A stretch of DNA of 10,255 nt from Acidithiobacillus ferruginosus (GTDB taxonomy: Bacteria > Pseudomonadota > Gammaproteobacteria > Acidithiobacillales > Acidithiobacillaceae): assembly GCF_018854495.1 (NCBI RefSeq), contig NZ_JABBDR010000296.1:1-10255 (forward strand). The letters are read 5' to 3'. A program made the translations under genes and the position numbers. Below the pieces are notes generated by a model. That model searched no databases, was not told the DNA's origin, and saw only the letters and a list, made by a program, of their open reading frames with translations. The first letter of the stretch is position 1. Each line of letters opens with the position of its first letter. Shown piece by piece: positions 1-10,209 of the stretch.

Positions 1-2510
1 CCGGCGGTGTGGGCCAGCATGTAGCCGCCGATGACATCACCGACCGCATAGATATGGGGCACATTGGTGCGCCCGGAGGCATCGACGGCGATGACGGCGC
101 GATCTCCCAAGGCCACACCGACCGCGGCCAGATTCAGCCCGCTGGTATCCGGGCGCTTACCCGTCGCCACCAGCAGCAGATCACAGGCATAATTCGCCAC
201 CTCATCGCCTGACTGGTAGCGCACCTCCAACTGGCCGGGTTGCTCCGCGACCTCCGTCACTTTGACCCCGGTCAGCACCTGCAAACGCGGGCTGTTATGG
301 GCGATGGCCTTCATCAACTGTTCGGCGACTTCCTTCTCCATCTCGGCCACTGGCCGTGGCAGGGCTTCCAGTACCCGCACTTCGGCGCCGAAATCGTGGA
401 ACATCTGCGCCATTTCCATACCGATGGCACCCGCGCCGATGACGCAGAGGCGCGCGGGCGGCTGTTTCAGGTTCCAGACCGTATCGGAAGTCACCGCCGC
501 GCCACTCTTCAACGCATCCTGAATGCCGGGAATCGGCGGCACAAAGGCGGGGGCGCCCGTAGCAATGACACAGGCTCCGAAGGTCAGGGTCCGCGCATCC
601 TTGCCGCTGATCTCGACGCTGTGGTCACCGGTGAAACGGGCATAGCCTTCCAGAACCTGAATTTTCACGCCCTGATCGGTTTTCAGGGCCATTTCTCCAC
701 GGGTCTGGAGAATACCGCGCCGATGCTGTTCCAGTTGTGCCCAATCCAGCTTGGGCGCGCCCAGGGCAATGCCCATCGCCGCATCGTGCTCGCGGTCGCG
801 GATGCGATCCGCAGCAGCACGCCAGGCCTTGGAGGGAATACAGCCCCGCCATAGACATTCACCGCCCGGCAGAGGCGCATTGTTGACCATGGCCACCCTG
901 ATGCCGTTCTCTGCGAGCTCGCGGGCGCAGTCTTCGCCGCCGGGGCCTGCGCCGATGACCAACACTTGCACGTCGTAATCCCCTTCGGGAATCACCGGGC
1001 CGCCACTACCCAGCCAGTTCTCGGGATGCTCCATGGCCTGTTTCAGGTCATTGAGGAACAGGGCCGCCTCGGCGCCGTTGACCACCCGGTGATCTGCCGT
1101 GATGGTGATGGGCATGCCTTCGGGTCCATTCCCGGCGATAGCAATGATGGCCGCCGTCCCCGGGGTGACGATGGCATCGAACTGGGCAATGCCGTACATC
1201 CCCATGTTCGAGATGGTAAAGGTAGGGTTGGTATATTCAGGCGGACTGAGACGACGTTTGCGCGCCTTCTCCAGCAATGAGGTCCACTCCGTCTGCAACT
1301 GTTCCGGCGTCTTGCCTTCGACACCGCGCAGGACAGGCACCACCAGACCACCGTCTTCCGTAGTCGCGGCAATGCCGATGTCATGCTGACTGCGTTCGAC
1401 AATCTTATCCACAGGCTGATAAGCGGCATTCACCAGAGGGTGTCTGTGCAACGCCTGCGAAGCGGCCTTGGCGATCGCCACCGTGACGGAAAGCTTGTGT
1501 GCCTTGGCGGCGCGGATCAGCGCCTCGGGCCTGACCTGCACGGTGACATGGAAAACCGGAATGCTCAGGGAAGCGACCATCGCCTGGCTGATCGCTCTTT
1601 CGATGGCCGTCATGGCGCGACCGTTACCCGGCACCGCGGGCTCGGCAGCGCCGGCGGACGCAACCGGGGCTGCATGGCCATCCGCAGCGCCGAGAACATC
1701 TGCGGCGACGATCACGCCCGCAGGCCCTGTACCGCGCAGCCCGTTGATATCCACACCCCGCTGACCCGCCAACTGCCGGGCAAAGGGGCTGGCGGCCCCC
1801 TGCCGCGGACGCGGCGCCGGATGTGCACCCGGTACTGGGCCAGACATGGCGGCGGCAGGCAGGGGAGTCGCTACGGGCGCCGATGTAGCGTCCGTCTGGC
1901 GCAGCCCCCCGTCATGGACCGCGTTTTCGTGGCTTACCTGCTCCGGCGACTCCACTAGCCAGGCGATGGCCTCTCCTACGGGCACCACCGCATCCACCGC
2001 CACCAAAGGACCCGACAGGTAGCCCTCACGGAACACTTCCACGTCCATGATGGCCTTGTCCGTTTCCACCGTCGCCACCACATCCCCGCGCTGTATCCTG
2101 TCCCCCGGGGCCTTTTCCCAGGACACCAGCACACCTTCGGTCATGGTGTCGGAGAGCTGCGGCATCTTCACCGCATAGCCCTCAGAGGCGGGTGGCGTAG
2201 CGGACGCAGGCCCCGTCGGCACGGCCGCAGGCGCCGCAGGAACAGGAGTTGCCACCGTTTCCACCGCGCTATCGGTGATATAGCCAATAGTCCCGCCCAC
2301 CGGAATGACACTGTTGGCCTCGGCCAGGGGCCCCGCCAGGTAACCGGAACGGAACACCTCGACATCCATGATGGCCTTGTCCGTTTCCACCGTCGCCACC
2401 ACGTCGCCACGCTCTACCCGCGCGCCCGCAGGCTTCTCCCAGGATACAAGGACACCTTCCGTCATGGTGTCGGAAAGTTGCGGCATTTTGATGACGTAAG
2501 GTTCAGCCAT
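1..2510 (-). CDS. Fused pyruvate dehydrogenase E2-E3: dihydrolipoamide acetyltransferase joined to dihydrolipoamide dehydrogenase (3' end outside window)
   Basis: One uninterrupted frame from ATG at 2510 to the left edge, 836 codons visible, which I translated codon by codon without meeting a stop. Domains in order: lipoyl domain 1 (about 1-80, lipoylated Lys45 in ETDKAIMD); Ala/Pro linker; lipoyl domain 2 (about 112-190, Lys152 in the same motif); Ala/Pro linker; peripheral-subunit-binding domain (about 238-275); acyltransferase core (about 298-500, with SNMGMYG and the catalytic His474 in DHRVVNG); linker (about 501-513); then E3 with FAD motif IGAGPGG (519-525), redox pair Cys552/Cys557 in GGECLWRGCIPSK, NAD motif GAGAIG (692-697) and the second FAD motif around Asp825 (YAVGD). 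The E3 dimerisation domain with its His-Glu pair should lie beyond position 1. E2 moves acetyl from E1 to CoA; E3 reoxidises the lipoyl arm with NAD. It follows pdhB by 55 bases with a weak SD (GGTGA). Fusion of these subunits is atypical, and an Asn replaces the usual Asp of HxxxDG. Confidence 0.93.
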   Translation of the reverse strand, partial: MAEPYVIKMPQLSDTMTEGVLVSWEKPAGARVERGDVVATVETDKAIMDVEVFRSGYLAGPLAEANSVIPVGGTIGYITDSAVETVATPVPAAPAAVPTGPASATPPASEGYAVKMPQLSDTMTEGVLVSWEKAPGDRIQRGDVVATVETDKAIMDVEVFREGYLSGPLVAVDAVVPVGEAIAWLVESPEQVSHENAVHDGGLRQTDATSAPVATPLPAAAMSGPVPGAHPAPRPRQGAASPFARQLAGQRGVDINGLRGTGPAGVIVAADVLGAADGHAAPVASAGAAEPAVPGNGRAMTAIERAISQAMVASLSIPVFHVTVQVRPEALIRAAKAHKLSVTVAIAKAASQALHRHPLVNAAYQPVDKIVERSQHDIGIAATTEDGGLVVPVLRGVEGKTPEQLQTEWTSLLEKARKRRLSPPEYTNPTFTISNMGMYGIAQFDAIVTPGTAAIIAIAGNGPEGMPITITADHRVVNGAEAALFLNDLKQAMEHPENWLGSGGPVIPEGDYDVQVLVIGAGPGGEDCARELAENGIRVAMVNNAPLPGGECLWRGCIPSKAWRAAADRIRDREHDAAMGIALGAPKLDWAQLEQHRRGILQTRGEMALKTDQGVKIQVLEGYARFTGDHSVEISGKDARTLTFGACVIATGAPAFVPPIPGIQDALKSGAAVTSDTVWNLKQPPARLCVIGAGAIGMEMAQMFHDFGAEVRVLEALPRPVAEMEKEVAEQLMKAIAHNSPRLQVLTGVKVTEVAEQPGQLEVRYQSGDEVANYACDLLLVATGKRPDTSGLNLAAVGVALGDRAVIAVDASGRTNVPHIYAVGDVIGGYMLAHTA
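969..986 (-). promoter_or_regulatory. Possible internal ribosome binding site and GTG start for free E3
   Basis: On the minus strand, AAGGGGA (985-979) sits 7 bases before an in-frame GTG (971-969) that encodes Val514 of the fusion. Starting there would give M-Q-V-L-V-I-G-A-G-P-G-G, which is how ordinary stand-alone E3 enzymes begin. It may be a relic of the E3 gene before fusion, or a working internal start. The purine-rich stretch also simply encodes Glu-Gly-Asp of the linker, so chance is possible. Confidence 0.4.
2016..2486 (-). repeat. Tandem lipoyl-domain duplication (copies 2337-2486 and 2016-2165)
   Basis: Two copies of about 50 codons, offset by 321 bases (107 codons), lie within the E2 part of the fusion gene. 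A 38-base stretch is identical in both (2044-2081 and 2365-2402), covering the lipoyl-lysine codon and its surroundings. The blocks MPQLSDTMTEGVLVSWEK and RGDVVATVETDKAIMDVEVFR-like segments are the same in protein. Multiple lipoyl domains are common in E2 proteins; such close identity suggests a recent duplication or gene conversion. Confidence 0.9.
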
Positions 2511-2565: not shown

Positions 2566-3546
2566 TTACCGGCCCAGCATCTTCCGCACAGCGGCGACCA
2601 CTTCTCCGGCATTGGGGATGGCTGCCTTCTCCAGGTGGCGGTTATACGGAATAGGCACATCCAGCGCATGCACCCGTACCGGCGCCGCATCGAGATCGAA
2701 AAAGCATTCCTCGTTGAGGATCGCCACCACCTCGGAACCCACGCCCACCGGCGCCTCGTCTTCTTCGACAACAACGGCGCGATGGGTCTTGCGCACGCTG
2801 GCCGCGATACCGGCCCGATCCATGGGTTTGAGTGCCCGCAAATCCACCACTTCGGCGTCGATGCCGTAGTCCTGAGCCAACTTCTGCGCCGCATCCAAGG
2901 CCCAATGAACGCTGATATTATAGGCAAAAATACTGACGTCCTTACCCGGCCGCATCACTTCGACACCTTCCAGCGGCGTAAAAAATTCTTCGTCCGGGAT
3001 CTCGCCCTTGAGGTTATACATACTCTCGTGCTCGATGATCACTACCGGATCATCACAGCGCACGGCGCTTTTCAGCAGCCCATAGGCGTCGCGCGGCGTT
3101 GCCGGGGTCACCACCCGCAGGCCGGAAATACCCATGAACACTTTCTCCATGCGCGCCGAGTGCTGGGCACCCAATTGGTGCGCAGTGCCGCCCGGTACCC
3201 GCATCACGAAGGGACAACGGATACGACCACCGGACATGTAATGGATTTTCGCGGCATTGTTCATGAGCTGATCCATCGCCAACCAGGCGAAATTAACGCT
3301 CATGATTTCGACGATGGGACGGGCCCCGATCATGGCGGCGCCCACCCCGATACCGGTGTAGCTGTTTTCAGAAATGGGTGTATCGATTACCCGCTGCTCG
3401 CCGTACTTGGCGAAGAGGCCGCTGGTCGCCTTATAGGTACCGCCGGCGACGCCGATATCCTCACCCATGGCAAAAACCAGGGGGTCCCGCGCCATCTCTT
3501 CATCGTGGGCGCGCAGGATACCCTGCCAATACATCATTTCAGCCAT
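2566..3546 (-). CDS. pdhB: Pyruvate dehydrogenase E1 component, beta subunit
   Basis: A 326-residue transketolase-like beta subunit of the alpha2-beta2 E1 enzyme, which with E1 alpha decarboxylates pyruvate using thiamine diphosphate and acetylates the lipoyl arm of E2. Visible features are the N-terminal MGEDIGVAGGTYKAT segment (27-41), DTPISE ending in Glu60, which in this family activates the thiamine ring, the PGGTAHQLGAQHS segment (about 118-130), and a C-terminal transketolase C domain rich in Val/Glu (VVDLRALKPMD, VVVEEDEAPVG). The start at 3546 (MAEMMYW) is chosen because it aligns with family N-termini; its ATG overlaps the pdhA stop by 8 bases (ATGGCTGA), implying translational coupling. 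An in-frame extension upstream lies wholly inside pdhA. The length is normal. I cannot exclude a branched-chain or acetoin substrate from sequence alone, but the context favours pyruvate. Confidence 0.94.
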   Translation of the reverse strand: MAEMMYWQGILRAHDEEMARDPLVFAMGEDIGVAGGTYKATSGLFAKYGEQRVIDTPISENSYTGIGVGAAMIGARPIVEIMSVNFAWLAMDQLMNNAAKIHYMSGGRIRCPFVMRVPGGTAHQLGAQHSARMEKVFMGISGLRVVTPATPRDAYGLLKSAVRCDDPVVIIEHESMYNLKGEIPDEEFFTPLEGVEVMRPGKDVSIFAYNISVHWALDAAQKLAQDYGIDAEVVDLRALKPMDRAGIAASVRKTHRAVVVEEDEAPVGVGSEVVAILNEECFFDLDAAPVRVHALDVPIPYNRHLEKAAIPNAGEVVAAVRKMLGR

Positions 3547-4522
3547 GGCTGCCTGCCTCCTTTTCTGTGTATACGTAACGCGCGATATCTTCCAGACGCG
3601 GCTCCGGGCTCTCGGCGGCAAAGCGCACGATTTCATTTTCGATTTCGTCCAGTATGGCCTTGTCCATGGCGTGGAACTCGTCCTCGCTGACCACCCCGGC
3701 TTCCAGCAGACGGCGCTTGTAGATGCCGATGGGATCGCGCTGCGCCCATTCCTCCACCTCTTCCTTGGACCGGTAGGCGCCCGAGTCGGACATGGAATGG
3801 CCCCGCAGACGATAGGTCATCAACTCCAGGAAGTAGGGTTTACGCTTTTCCCGCACGTACTGCACCGCCTTTTCGGCGTGGTCCATGACCACATCGATAT
3901 CCTGGCCGTCGCACTGCGCCGCCTCGATTTTGTAGGGTGCCACCCGCTTGTACTGGTTGATCTCCACCGTCGAACGTTCAATGGCAGTGCCGATACCATA
4001 CAGGTTGTTTTCGCAGATAAAGAGCACCGGCAAATTCCACAGGCTCGCCATGTTCATGGTCTCGTGGAAAGTGCCCTGATTATTGGCGCCGTCGCCCAAA
4101 AAACAGATCGAGATTTCGTCACTACCGCGCAACTGGATCGCCTTGGCAAAACCGGCCGCCAGCGGGAAGGGGCCGCCGACCAGCGCGTAGCCGCCCATGA
4201 AGTGCACATCGGGATCAAAGAGGTGCATGGAACCGCCACGGCCCTTGGAACAGCCTGTTTCTTTGCCGAAGAGCTCCGCCATCAGCGCCTTGGGATCCAT
4301 ACCTGATTTCAGGGCATGGATATGATCGCGATAGCCGGTCACCACGTAGTCCGAACCGGTGCGGGCCTTCTCCAGCACACCGATGGCACAGGCTTCCTCA
4401 CCGGGATAGAGGTGCAAAAAACCGCCGATCTGGCGTTCGTGATAGGCCTCCGCGCAGCGTTCCTCGAAACGGCGGGCAAACAGCATTTCACGCAACAGGC
4501 GCTTCTGGTCCGTGGCGTCCAT
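3539..4522 (-). CDS. pdhA: Pyruvate dehydrogenase E1 component, alpha subunit
   Basis: A 327-residue thiamine-diphosphate-dependent alpha subunit of heterotetrameric E1. It has YPGEEA (39-44), the GYRDH segment (63-67), SKGRGGSMH (92-100), and the classic ThDP/Mg motif opening GDG (143-145) with NNQG, closing at Asn172-Asn173 (ENN). The conserved loop YRLRGHSMSD (237-246) matches the region phosphorylated in animal E1 alpha. The start at 4522 (MDATDQK) is preceded by a perfect AGGAGG only 3 bases away; the frame is open 24 codons further up, but that stretch runs through the leader hairpin and lacks family similarity. It is the first gene of pdhA-pdhB-(E2-E3 fusion). This is the E1 type of Gram-positives, alpha-proteobacteria, mitochondria and some chemolithotrophs, not the single-chain AceE of E. 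coli. The alternative is another 2-oxo acid dehydrogenase E1. Confidence 0.94.
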   Translation of the reverse strand: MDATDQKRLLREMLFARRFEERCAEAYHERQIGGFLHLYPGEEACAIGVLEKARTGSDYVVTGYRDHIHALKSGMDPKALMAELFGKETGCSKGRGGSMHLFDPDVHFMGGYALVGGPFPLAAGFAKAIQLRGSDEISICFLGDGANNQGTFHETMNMASLWNLPVLFICENNLYGIGTAIERSTVEINQYKRVAPYKIEAAQCDGQDIDVVMDHAEKAVQYVREKRKPYFLELMTYRLRGHSMSDSGAYRSKEEVEEWAQRDPIGIYKRRLLEAGVVSEDEFHAMDKAILDEIENEIVRFAAESPEPRLEDIARYVYTEKEAGSHG

Positions 4523-4545
4523 GGTCCTCCTAGACAAAAAACATT

Positions 4546-4572
4546 GGACCTGTGTCACTAGGGACACAGGCC
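4546..4572 (-). promoter_or_regulatory. pdhA leader hairpin followed by U-tract (possible attenuator or SD-masking structure)
   Basis: An inverted repeat CCTGTGTC / GACACAGG (arms 4549-4556 and 4563-4570, 6-base loop) extends by two more pairs past a single bulged base. Reading the minus strand, it is followed 4 bases later by six Ts (4541-4536) and then the pdhA AGGAGG. The loop reads CCTAG, complementary to CTAGG that overlaps the Shine-Dalgarno; GGTCC at the 3' foot is complementary to GGACC just before the ATG. It resembles an attenuator terminator or a translational switch, but a simple operator or stabilising hairpin fits too. Confidence 0.5.
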
Positions 4573-4604
4573 TCAGGTGAATGAGTGAGAGCAAAATCTT
4601 GGGA

Positions 4605-5681: not shown

Positions 5682-6716
5682 TTACGGCAGCAGGGCGATT
5701 TGCATCAGGCCCGCGTCCTCCGCCAGGGAGAACAGTCGGTTCATATTCTGTATCGCCTGCCCCGCCGCCCCTTTGACCAGATTGTCGATGACCGAAAGGA
5801 CGACTACTTGCCCCGGCCGGGGCTGATGTACGGCGATATGGCAGGTGTTGGCACCCCGCACTGAACGGGTAGCCGGGTGACTGCCGAAGGGCAGGACATC
5901 CACAAAAGGCTCGCCGGCGTAACGGGTGGCGAACAGGTCTTGTAGCGCCGCATCGCTCATCGGCTGCGCCAGGCGCCCGTAGAGGGTGGCATGAATGCCG
6001 CGGATCATCGGCATCAGGTGCGGTGTGAACTGCAACTCCAGCCGGGTCCCGCTGATGTCAGAGAGCACGGCCTCGATTTCCGGCCGGTGCCGGTGGCCGC
6101 TGACGCCATAGGCACTGACGCTATCCGCCGTTTCGGGGAGTATCAAGCCGACCTTGGCGCTACGACCCGCTCCGCTGACGCCGGACTTGCAATCCGCGAT
6201 CAGCGTATCCTCTCGCAGCAAGCCCTCGGCCAATAGAGGCGCAAGGCCGAGGATGACCGCCGTCGGATAACAGCCTGGATTGGCAATCAGCCGCGCCTCA
6301 CTGACCTTGGCCCGATAGTATTCGGGCAAGCCATAACAGGCTTCGGCCAGCACCTCGGGTGCGCGGTGGGCCATGCCGTACCACTGGGCAAAAACTTCTG
6401 CGTCGGGCAATCGGAAATCAGCACCCAGGTCGATAATTCGTACGCCATTGGCCAGCAGTTTTGGAGCGCTGTCCATGGCCACGCCATGGGGTGTCGCAAA
6501 AAAAACGACGTCCAGGGTGCCGAGTATGGCGGGATCTGGGGCGGTATAGGACAGGTTGCAGTGGCCACGCAAATTGGGGAAGTGCTCGTCCACTCGCTGC
6601 CCGGCCTCAGCGCGGGAAGTGATGGCCACTAGCTCGACTTCCGGATGCGGCAGCAGCAGACGGAGCAACTCCACCCCGGTATAACCCGTACCCCCAACGA
6701 TACCTGCGCGAATCAT
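5682..6716 (-). CDS. argC: N-acetyl-gamma-glutamyl-phosphate reductase
   Basis: A 344-residue enzyme that reduces N-acetylglutamyl phosphate to the semialdehyde with NADPH, the third step of arginine (ornithine) biosynthesis, in the cytosol. An N-terminal Rossmann motif GGTGYTG (8-14) binds [13 protein letters not shown] (72-80) and DLGADFRL (96-103) are family signatures; the catalytic Cys149 lies in [16 protein letters not shown] and the GHRHRPE motif follow, and the end [11 protein letters not shown] is typical. Length is that of the standard type-1 enzyme. ATG at 6716 has a strong GGGAGG-type SD about 6 bases upstream. It sits 74 bases after rpsI, in the order rplM-rpsI-argC seen in other proteobacteria, yet a strong terminator lies in the gap, so argC must rely on readthrough or on a promoter I could not place. 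Confidence 0.96.
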
Positions 6717-6790: not shown

Positions 6791-7177
6791 TTAACGCTTG
6801 GAGAACTGGTGACTACGCCGGGCCTTATGCTTGCCGACCTTCTTCCGTTCCACTTCGCGGGCGTCACGGGTGACGAAACCGGCGCTGCGCAAGGGACGGC
6901 GCAGGGTTTCATCATAGACCATGAGGGCGCGGGTAATGCCATGGCGGATCGCCCCGGCCTGACCACTGGCACCACCACCGCTGACATTCACCAGAATGTC
7001 GAACTGGCCGCCATGACCGGTCAGCTCCAAGGGCTGCATGACCACCATGCGTGAGGTCTCACGGCCAAAGTAGTCTTCCAAGGTGCGCTTGTTGATGACG
7101 ATCTTGCCAGAGCCACGGCGCAAATACACGCGGGCTGTTGCACTTTTACGCCGACCGGTACCGTAATATTGTTCCAT
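6791..7177 (-). CDS. rpsI: 30S ribosomal protein S9
   Basis: A 128-residue protein of the small subunit head, about the same length as E. coli S9. The N-terminal [14 protein letters not shown] signature, the [15 protein letters not shown] core (about 67-81) and the basic tail [11 protein letters not shown] are diagnostic; in the family the C-terminal Lys-Arg reaches the peptidyl-tRNA site. It begins 12 bases after the rplM stop, with an AAGG-type SD overlapping that stop, so the two genes form one operon. It is followed by the UUCG terminator. Confidence 0.98.
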
Positions 7178-7189
7178 AAAGTCTTCGCC

Positions 7190-7618
7190 TTAAACGTTCA
7201 GGGGCTGCGGCTGCTGCGCCGAATGAGGATGCTCGGAGCCGGTATAGACCTTGAGCTTCTTGAACATCGCCCGACCCAGCGGATTCTTGGGCAGCATGCC
7301 CTTGACCGCGAGTTCGATGATCCGCTCCGGGTGCGTCTCCATCATCTTCTCGAAGGAAGCACTCTTCAGGTTGCCGACATAGCCGGTGTGATGGTAATAC
7401 ATTTTGTCTTTGGCCTTGTTGCCGGTAACCGCGATCTTGTCGGCATTGATGACGACAATATAATCGCCGGTATCGGCATGGGGCGTGTACTCGGGCTTAT
7501 GCTTGCCACGCAGACGTTTGGCCAACTCCGAAGAGAGGCGGCCCAGAACTTTATCGGTGGCATCCACCACGAACCAGTCTCCTTGCACTTCATGAGACTT
7601 GGCAGAATAGGTCTTCAT
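7190..7618 (-). CDS. rplM: 50S ribosomal protein L13
   Basis: A 142-residue large-subunit protein, the same length as E. coli L13, binding 23S rRNA early in assembly. Diagnostic segments are [15 protein letters not shown] (19-33), [17 protein letters not shown] (about 40-56), [14 protein letters not shown], and [22 protein letters not shown] near the C-terminus. The start at 7618 (MKTYSAK) matches family N-termini and has GGAG 6 bases upstream; a GTG nine codons earlier is in frame but lies just inside the predicted transcript start. First gene of rplM-rpsI. Confidence 0.98.
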
Positions 7619-7656
7619 CACAAACTCCGGCTTCGGGTTTTTCACTGAGGGGCGGG

Positions 7657-9030: not shown

Positions 9031-10209
9031 GTGAAGATGGATGTGCTGATCGTCGGCGCAGGCGCCGCCGGGCTCATGTGCGCGATCGCGGCCGGCCGCC
9101 GCGGACGGCGCGTTCTGGTGGTCGACCATGCCAACAAGGTTGGCAAGAAAATTCTGATGTCCGGCGGCGGCCATTGCAATTTCACGAATCTAGGGGTAAC
9201 GCCAAGCCAGTACCTCTGCAGCAACCCCCATTTCCCCAAGTCGGCGCTGGCGCGTTACACACCCGCGGACTTCATCGCACTCGTGGAGAAACACGGTATC
9301 GCCTATCACGAAAAAGAACTTGGCCAGTTGTTCTGCGATGGCTCCTCCAGGCAGATCGTACAGATGCTGCTAGATGAATGCGCCGCAGCCGACGTGACCA
9401 TGGAAACCAGCTTCAGCATAGAACGCATTCACAAAACAGCGGAAGGCTTCAGCCTGCGTACTGCCCGCGGCGAGGTACAGACCGAAGCATTGGTGGTTGC
9501 CACCGGCGGTCTGTCCATTCCCGGCATGGGTGCCACGGGTTTTGGCTACGAAATCGCCCGCCAGTTTGGTCACCATGTGCTCCCCACCCGCCCCGGACTG
9601 GTACCTCTGACGCTGAGTGGTAGCCATCAGGCGCATTATAAGGACCTGGCGGGGGTCACGTTACCTGACGTGGAAGCCCATACGGCAAGGCAGAGTTTCC
9701 GCGGAGGCCTCCTGTTCACCCATCGTGGCCTCAGCGGTCCGTCTATCCTGCAAATTTCTTCCTACTGGCAACCTGGAGATGGTCTGTATATTGACCTGTT
9801 GCCGGACCAGAATACAGGTGGCTGGCTTTTGGAACAGCGCACGGCCCGGCCGCTCGCCGCACTCAAAACCGTGCTCGGCGATGCACTGCCGAAACGGCTG
9901 GCGCAGCGCCTGTGCGAGCAGTGGTTCGACAGCCGGCCCATGCGGCAATACCGCAGCGCGGAGCTCAGACTGATCGGCAGTCAGATCAACGCATGGCCCG
10001 TCATCGCCAGCGGCACCGAAGGTTACCGCACTGCCGAAGTCACGCTGGGGGGCGTCGATACCGACATGCTGTGTTCCAGCACTTTGCAGTCCAAGCTGGT
10101 GCCTGGCCTATATTTCATCGGCGAAGTGGTCGACGTTACCGGCTGGCTTGGCGGCTATAACTTCCACTGGGCATGGGCATCAGGACAGGCGGCGGGGCAG
10201 GTCGTTTAA
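9031..10209 (+). CDS. YhiN/HI0933-family FAD-dependent oxidoreductase
   Basis: A 392-residue flavoprotein of the HI0933 family (E. coli YhiN is about the same size). Evidence: the FAD-binding Rossmann motif DVLIVGAGAAGLMCA (4-18), acidic Asp32 at the end of the second beta strand, KKILMSGGGHCNFTN (39-53, family signature, usually GGGRCN), VVATGGLSIPGMGATGFGY in the middle, LFTHRGLSGPSILQIS (the HI0933 insert), and the C-terminal GLYFIGEVVDVTGWLGGYNFHWAWASG, which closes the FAD site. Two starts are possible: GTG at 9031, with GGTGA 4 bases upstream, or ATG at 9037, with the same GGTGA 10 bases upstream; GTG gives an N-terminus that aligns slightly better. Physiological substrate is unknown for most of this family. 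It is the only plus-strand gene here and diverges from the nitroreductase gene. Confidence 0.93.
   Translation: MKMDVLIVGAGAAGLMCAIAAGRRGRRVLVVDHANKVGKKILMSGGGHCNFTNLGVTPSQYLCSNPHFPKSALARYTPADFIALVEKHGIAYHEKELGQLFCDGSSRQIVQMLLDECAAADVTMETSFSIERIHKTAEGFSLRTARGEVQTEALVVATGGLSIPGMGATGFGYEIARQFGHHVLPTRPGLVPLTLSGSHQAHYKDLAGVTLPDVEAHTARQSFRGGLLFTHRGLSGPSILQISSYWQPGDGLYIDLLPDQNTGGWLLEQRTARPLAALKTVLGDALPKRLAQRLCEQWFDSRPMRQYRSAELRLIGSQINAWPVIASGTEGYRTAEVTLGGVDTDMLCSSTLQSKLVPGLYFIGEVVDVTGWLGGYNFHWAWASGQAAGQVV

Follow-up and report, generated by a model that had tools for sequence, protein, structure and literature searches.

A conserved fusion of the E2 and E3 proteins in Acidithiobacillus and other bacteria, predicted to serve as a covalent subunit of pyruvate dehydrogenase

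E3 is usually a separate dimer, common to several complexes and held by them in few copies. The window analyzed here, 10,255 nucleotides that make up the entire contig C218 of a 309-contig Acidithiobacillus ferruginosus assembly, appears to carry pyruvate dehydrogenase (PDH) E2 and E3 in a single gene, which raises the question of whether such a fusion is real, and how a complex would be built from it. A minus-strand ORF starts at ATG 2510 and reaches the end of the window after 836 codons without a stop (2510..3), in agreement with the single-frame fusion that the sequence-only reading had described, and Pfam recovered the domain order it had given, lipoyl-lipoyl-PSBD-acyltransferase-E3, including the peripheral subunit-binding domain (PSBD) that it had listed as retained. 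The Pfam residue limits are 240-273 for E3_binding, 299-500 for 2-oxoacid_dh and from 515 for Pyr_redox_2, besides two lipoyl stretches, while the Pfam matches of the fused chain include no E1 domain, E1 being encoded by separate genes. The features of the fused gene are as follows.

3..2510, minus strand: fused E2-E3 gene, 5' 836 codons (E2 and the FAD/NAD part of E3), the rest lying on contig C291
2274..2501, minus strand: lipoyl domain 1 with the ETDKA lysine K45 (Pfam Biotin_lipoyl; limits by eye)
1950..2177, minus strand: lipoyl domain 2 with lysine K152 (Pfam Biotin_lipoyl; limits by eye)
1692..1799, minus strand: PSBD (Pfam E3_binding PF02817, 40.7 bits, cut-off 23.7)
1011..1616, minus strand: E2 acyltransferase catalytic domain (PF00198, about 170-171.7 bits)
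1074-1091, minus strand: HRVVNG motif of E2, within the acyltransferase domain
972..1016, minus strand: junction W499-D513, E2 C-terminal knob and E3 N-terminus (from alignments)
3..974, minus strand: E3 FAD/NAD domains with the redox disulfide C552/C557 (Pyr_redox_2, 230 bits)

The missing end of the gene, encoding the E3 dimerization domain, was found in the same genome as 150 residues encoded at the very edge of contig C291 (14167-14616 of its 14618 positions). This piece is 99% identical to residues 834-983 of protein P0002, which is 97% identical to the window's part of the fused protein. The ends of C218 and C291 have 13 exact bases in common, across which the reading frame continues, and the joined gene comes to about 983 codons, within the range of roughly 950-1000 that had been predicted. 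Among the best 120 protein matches, full-length fused relatives extend from 97% down to 54% identity, and judged by these alignments the relationship is far beyond chance. The nearest full-length proteins measure 983-996 aa, the named ones belonging to Acidithiobacillus and being labelled 'FAD-dependent oxidoreductase', and a few full-length entries in that set bear E2 or pyruvate dehydrogenase names; the label on most of the named full-length relatives conceals their E2 half. An artefact of assembly or sequencing that joined two genes could be suspected from the split of the gene over two contigs in this assembly, but the identical architecture recurs in many other genomes, including the single-contig genomes G003, G007, G016, G049, G063, and G109. 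We therefore reject this explanation, whose probability we regard as negligible. A stop or frameshift near 990-1020, considered earlier as a possible flaw, is likewise excluded by the relatives with intact architecture.

The search for the same architecture in related genomes, which the sequence-only reading had called for, found it in many. In a search with P0002 at a threshold of E 1e-120, the fused gene was matched in 28 of the 31 genomes of the window genome's order (the misses being G011, G023, and G027), or in 24/25 when only those of good quality are considered. A draw from the class gave 77 matches in 369 genomes. Of these 77, G237 has an E2 by itself, in G312 the two halves lie separately on its contig, in G105 and G119 a single stop interrupts the match, and several others run into contig ends; the split gene of G013 falls on X residues (masked bases) and was not counted as a real break. 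Matches were found in 2/299 genomes drawn from the phylum, one of them the window's own. In the order of G596, whose protein is identical to a Sulfuritortus protein over 480 residues, 23/250 genomes contain this E3 clade, in all 23 cases within a frame 958-1030 aa long. Among the named loci are those of Acidithiobacillus, Thiobacillus, Thiohalophilus, Thiohalobacter, and Hydrogenophilaceae, organisms that are mostly known as chemolithoautotrophs. Outside groups appear in the titles of 2/80 loci (L066, Spirochaetia; L072, Desulfobacteraceae) and of a few partial proteins from the protein searches, in both cases from metagenome bins. Taken at the level of sequence, this covalent variant of PDH is both real and conserved. 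No description of an E2-E3 fusion was found among the titles and abstracts listed from an open-access collection that includes few subscription journals.

The genes beside the fusion point to the complex it belongs to.

2566..3636, minus strand: pyruvate dehydrogenase E1 beta ORF (NF006667, 378 bits, cut-off 321)
3539..4594, minus strand: pyruvate dehydrogenase E1 alpha ORF (TIGR03182, 412 bits, cut-off 393.85)

The start of the E1 alpha ORF possibly lies downstream of its TTG. The gene order E1 alpha-E1 beta-E2E3 is seen in 74 of 80 loci, and of the remaining six, five are cut by contig ends and one (L062) is without E1 alpha upstream. AceE (TIGR00759, E up to 1e-100) was detected in none of 76 genomes with the fused gene, in a search for which 3/14 control genomes were positive. 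The other neighbours in the window are ordinary, with argC and an aminoacetone-oxidase-family flavoprotein at 5682-6716 and 9031-10209, respectively, and ORFs at 6791-7645 that by eye resemble ribosomal proteins S9 and L13. The window genome also contains a second PDH-like cluster, with E1 alpha and E1 beta (both above NCBIfam cut-offs) and a lipoyl piece at the end of contig C12 (L124). An unfused E2 catalytic domain with the motif DHRVIFG lies on the end of contig C38 (L121 10023-10670), followed by genes that by eye resemble acetate kinase, a transporter, phosphotransacetylase, aldolase, and pyruvate kinase. C12 and C38 presumably join into one second cluster, in which no E3 was seen.

The residues expected for catalysis are preserved in both halves. 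Across the 44 aligned fused proteins, lipoyl K152 is present in all and K45 in 43 (one gap), and E2 residues H474, S434, and N478 as well as the E3 redox pair C552 and C557 (CxxxxC) and the C-terminal H957 and E962 are each found in 44/44. H474 and S434 align to H603 and S551 of E. coli AceF. From sequence, we infer that the fused E2-E3 is active. In every one of the 44 the Asp of the HxxxDG motif is replaced by Asn; passages of PMC8421416 name this Asp, D607 in E. coli E2p, as one of the catalytic residues. Asn was likewise found in 280 of the 281 DHRxxxG motifs of the proteins retrieved, with a single Asp, and since the unfused E2 proteins P0204 and P0205 also carry it, fusion alone does not explain the change. 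A similar case is the PSBD, where R245 is present in 44/44 proteins and a basic residue at position 266, Arg in E. coli AceF, in 0/44; this loss was considered as a mark of fusion and rejected, as P0204 and P0205 are without the basic residue too. Neither half of the fused protein attains its NCBIfam equivalog cut-off, with 299 bits against 445 for TIGR01349 (E2) and, on the full-length P0002, 372.7 bits against 408.8 for TIGR01350 (E3). The E3 half ends in an Arg-rich tail (RRL..RLRR) in which R969, R970, L971, R974, L975, R976, and R977 are invariant in the 44 fused proteins, a pattern also found in 53/55 E3 proteins of stand-alone length.

One earlier claim did not survive inspection of the junction, namely that a Gly/Ser linker of about 13 residues separates the two enzymes. 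The E2 C-terminus (W499-L-G) runs directly into the E3 N-terminus (GPVIPEGDYD). Unfused E2 relatives terminate at the family W (P0204 with ...DPARWLS, P0205 with ...NPGRWLIRGIS), and stand-alone E3 relatives start with an IPxGDWD-like head (52/55 of that length). Because unfused E2s end and stand-alone E3s begin at this point, there is no true linker, the native termini abut, and a flexible Gly/Ser linker is rejected. The spacing between the DHR motif and the E3 GxGPGG motif is 47 residues in 33/44 fused proteins, 48 in 5/44 and 50-62 in 6/44, and the distance from W to GxGPGG behaves in the same manner (fixed in 33, +1 in 5, +3-15 in 6). W499 itself is invariant (44/44) and is followed by M in 20, L in 15, I in 4, and A in 5 proteins; together with this next residue it aligns with the ends of two E. 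coli proteins, RRLVM in AceF and RLLLDV in SucB. The hydrophobic C-terminal knob is therefore kept, with no extra residues before it in a comparison that covered E. coli AceF and SucB.

We were also interested in the history of the fusion. A careful, unrooted E3 tree without outgroups was built from 44 fused proteins and 19 of the 55 of stand-alone length, leaving out P0303, P0325, and P0341, which looked like internal starts, and the stray P0312. Stand-alone E3s fall in three places among the fused ones, with three label changes, all three forced by supported branches; this tree supersedes an earlier quick one (70 rows, very long outgroups) with 7-8 label changes, five of them forced by starred branches. 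The simplest reading of the tree would be that the fused form is the older state, with several later splits. Unfused forms do occur, as G237 holds an unfused E2 and the protein collection contains stand-alone E3 relatives, and among the 369 class genomes one partial match to the E3 clade, in G312, lies in a frame as short as that of a stand-alone E3 (438 aa).

E2 is active only as a trimer and E3 only as a dimer, and the 1:1 stoichiometry of the two that had been anticipated follows by construction from the single chain. We propose that E1 would put acetyl on the swinging lipoyl arms, that the E2 domain, active as a trimer, would hand it to CoA, and that the E3 domain attached to it, working as a dimer, would reoxidize the lipoyl arm with NAD+, each PDH E2 thus being supplied with its own E3. 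It is probable, at roughly 80%, that the fused gene encodes such a covalent E2-E3 subunit of PDH, working with E1 alpha and E1 beta and with E3 dimers built into the particle. As E3 begins about 13 residues past the E2 knob, E3 dimers of neighbouring trimers should enter the particle; those from adjacent E2 trimers would then be built in rather than loosely docked to the PSBD, which would be left for E1, its presumed partner. Closure of trimers by dimers could yield an OdhA-like hexamer or a cage whose two-fold edges each bear an E3 dimer, that is, 12 E3 dimers in a 24-mer and 30 in a 60-mer, and the kept knob may favour the cage a little. On the possible clash with normal core assembly that the sequence-only reading suggested, the sequence points in both directions, the knob being retained but E3 following it after about 13 residues.

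Alternatively, E3 might merely hang from an ordinary 24- or 60-subunit E2 core whose architecture is unchanged. The kept hydrophobic knob speaks for such a core, given that, in passages of PMC8421416, the C-terminal knob connects E2 trimers and knob-into-hole contacts form the basis of the trimer-trimer interfaces. However, the tether of roughly 13 residues, in which I507 is conserved in 43/44 and P508 and G510 in 44/44 aligned fused proteins, is unlike a long Ala/Pro linker, and E3 would be expected to dimerize between chains and thereby impose trimer-trimer contacts. We consider an unchanged core rather unlikely. To the fuller form of our own proposal, in which E2 trimers are joined via E3 dimers in a closed particle (a hexamer or a cage of 24 or 60 chains), E3 is also structural, E1 is the sole ligand of the PSBD and the canonical, separate E3 (Lpd) serves only 2-oxoglutarate dehydrogenase (OGDH), we would give about even odds. 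The carriers include sulfur and iron oxidizers, in which the single chain would be expected to impose an atypical architecture on a well-known complex, and the fusion offers a way to test which of three features PDH needs: the size of the E2 cage, the stoichiometry of E3, or docking through the PSBD.

If E3 is tied to PDH, the question arises of which E3 serves other complexes. OGDH E1 (PF16870) is present in 278 of the 369 class genomes, comprising 39 of the 77 with a match and 239 of the 292 others, and the idea that the fusion requires OGDH loss was rejected on these counts. TIGR01350 was then applied to 76 of the 77 matching genomes, G237 being left out, and Lpd above the cut-off was found in 37/38 genomes with OGDH E1 compared with 5/38 without, the latter being G173, G285, and G380, all borderline (408-416 bits), together with G287 and G345. 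As the genomes are related, Fisher tests on these data overstate independence, and the count by family is fairer (21/21 with OGDH vs 1/13 without, six mixed families left out). G072, G074, G119, G185, G212, G240, G273, and G355 lack OGDH and have a non-fused E3-like match of 380-397 bits, and at the looser threshold of E up to 1e-112 Lpd is seen in 38/38 genomes with OGDH vs 13/38 without among the matches listed; the split depends on where the cut-off is set, which lowers our confidence in the proposal a little. The canonical Lpd lies no more than 5 kb from OGDH E1 in 17 of 19 genomes, among matches listed with both positions. Several Lpd matches sit in frames of 714-797 aa (G173, G285, G380, G287, and G382), which hints at further fused or extended forms of E3. 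Most simply, these data would be read as a division of duty in which the fused E3 works for PDH and the canonical Lpd for OGDH, such that OGDH-bearing organisms would retain a separate canonical Lpd, mostly beside the OGDH genes. With its E1 operon, the absence of AceE and an Lpd that tracks OGDH, the fused gene looks like the E2-E3 of PDH, to which it is presumably dedicated. In this lineage E3 would be joined to E2 at 1:1, against the textbook picture of a separate E3, and a second E3 is apparently kept for another complex.

It is conceivable that free E3 is also made from the fused chain, through an internal start or by proteolysis, or that the chain works in trans, so that its E3 would serve the H protein of glycine cleavage, the lipoate-binding protein LbpA of sulfur oxidation, or the second PDH-like cluster. 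In the window genome's order GcvP is present in 29/31 genomes while the TIGR01350 cut-off is passed in 0/31 (11/14 controls pass), the stand-alone E3s branch within the fused E3 tree at three places, and in the window an in-frame GTG at residue 514 is preceded by GAAGGGG. In addition, Cao et al., in passages of PMC6067878, propose that the E3 of LbpA is common with 2-oxoacid dehydrogenases. Against this, a start-like codon at that residue occurs in only 9 of the 61 loci in which the junction was found (80 tried), 8 of these 9 having an SD-like stretch, and 36 have Tyr at that position, so a conserved internal start was rejected; the window genome, moreover, has another dihydrolipoyl dehydrogenase-like gene. 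This is a 463-aa protein on contig C271 that exceeds the NF004943 dihydrolipoyl dehydrogenase cut-off (668 vs 432 bits) and may serve glycine cleavage. We thus hold a free or trans-acting E3 from the fused chain to be doubtful. A 472-aa E3-like protein of the same genome (L128 690-2105, G000:C243), with GGTCLNRGCVPKK and HPSRAEE, scores under the cut-off for each of the 25 NCBIfam families listed.

Compared with known systems, the fused protein resembles canonical PDH E2 (AceF/PdhC) and Lpd in its E2 domain order, lipoyl lysines, PSBD, catalytic His and Ser, E3 redox disulfide, His-Glu pair, and adjoining E1 genes, whereas it differs in having E2 and E3 on one chain and Asn instead of Asp in HxxxDG. 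In contrast to canonical E2, it is also devoid of 11-14 residues before the DHR motif, a stretch equally absent in the unfused P0204, P0205, and the second E2 of the window genome. Neisseria p64K is an E3 with an N-terminal lipoyl domain and is not known to have a PSBD or acyltransferase domain; the fused protein is like it in that E3 is carried on a longer chain and unlike it in that both of these domains are present. Only the E3 part of p64K was matched, as the structures 1ojt and 1bhy. The actinobacterial OdhA/KGD proteins, two-in-one 2-oxoglutarate dehydrogenases, have an E1o-E2o fusion as their hallmark, and the fused E2-E3 chain contains no E1 domain. According to passages of PMC10415282, their partner enzyme is E1o, here replaced by E3, their lipoyl groups come from another protein, whereas the fused E2-E3 has its own lipoyl domains, and their E2 has a phenylalanine-containing insertion to be set against the fused E2-E3. 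The precedent of OdhA invoked in the sequence-only reading is nevertheless apt, as the same passages (PMC10415282) describe an E2o trimer and an E1o dimer on one chain with a 17-residue linker, assembled into a homohexamer, and the fused E2-E3 shares with OdhA/KGD the plan of a trimeric E2 joined by a short linker to a partner enzyme that forms dimers.
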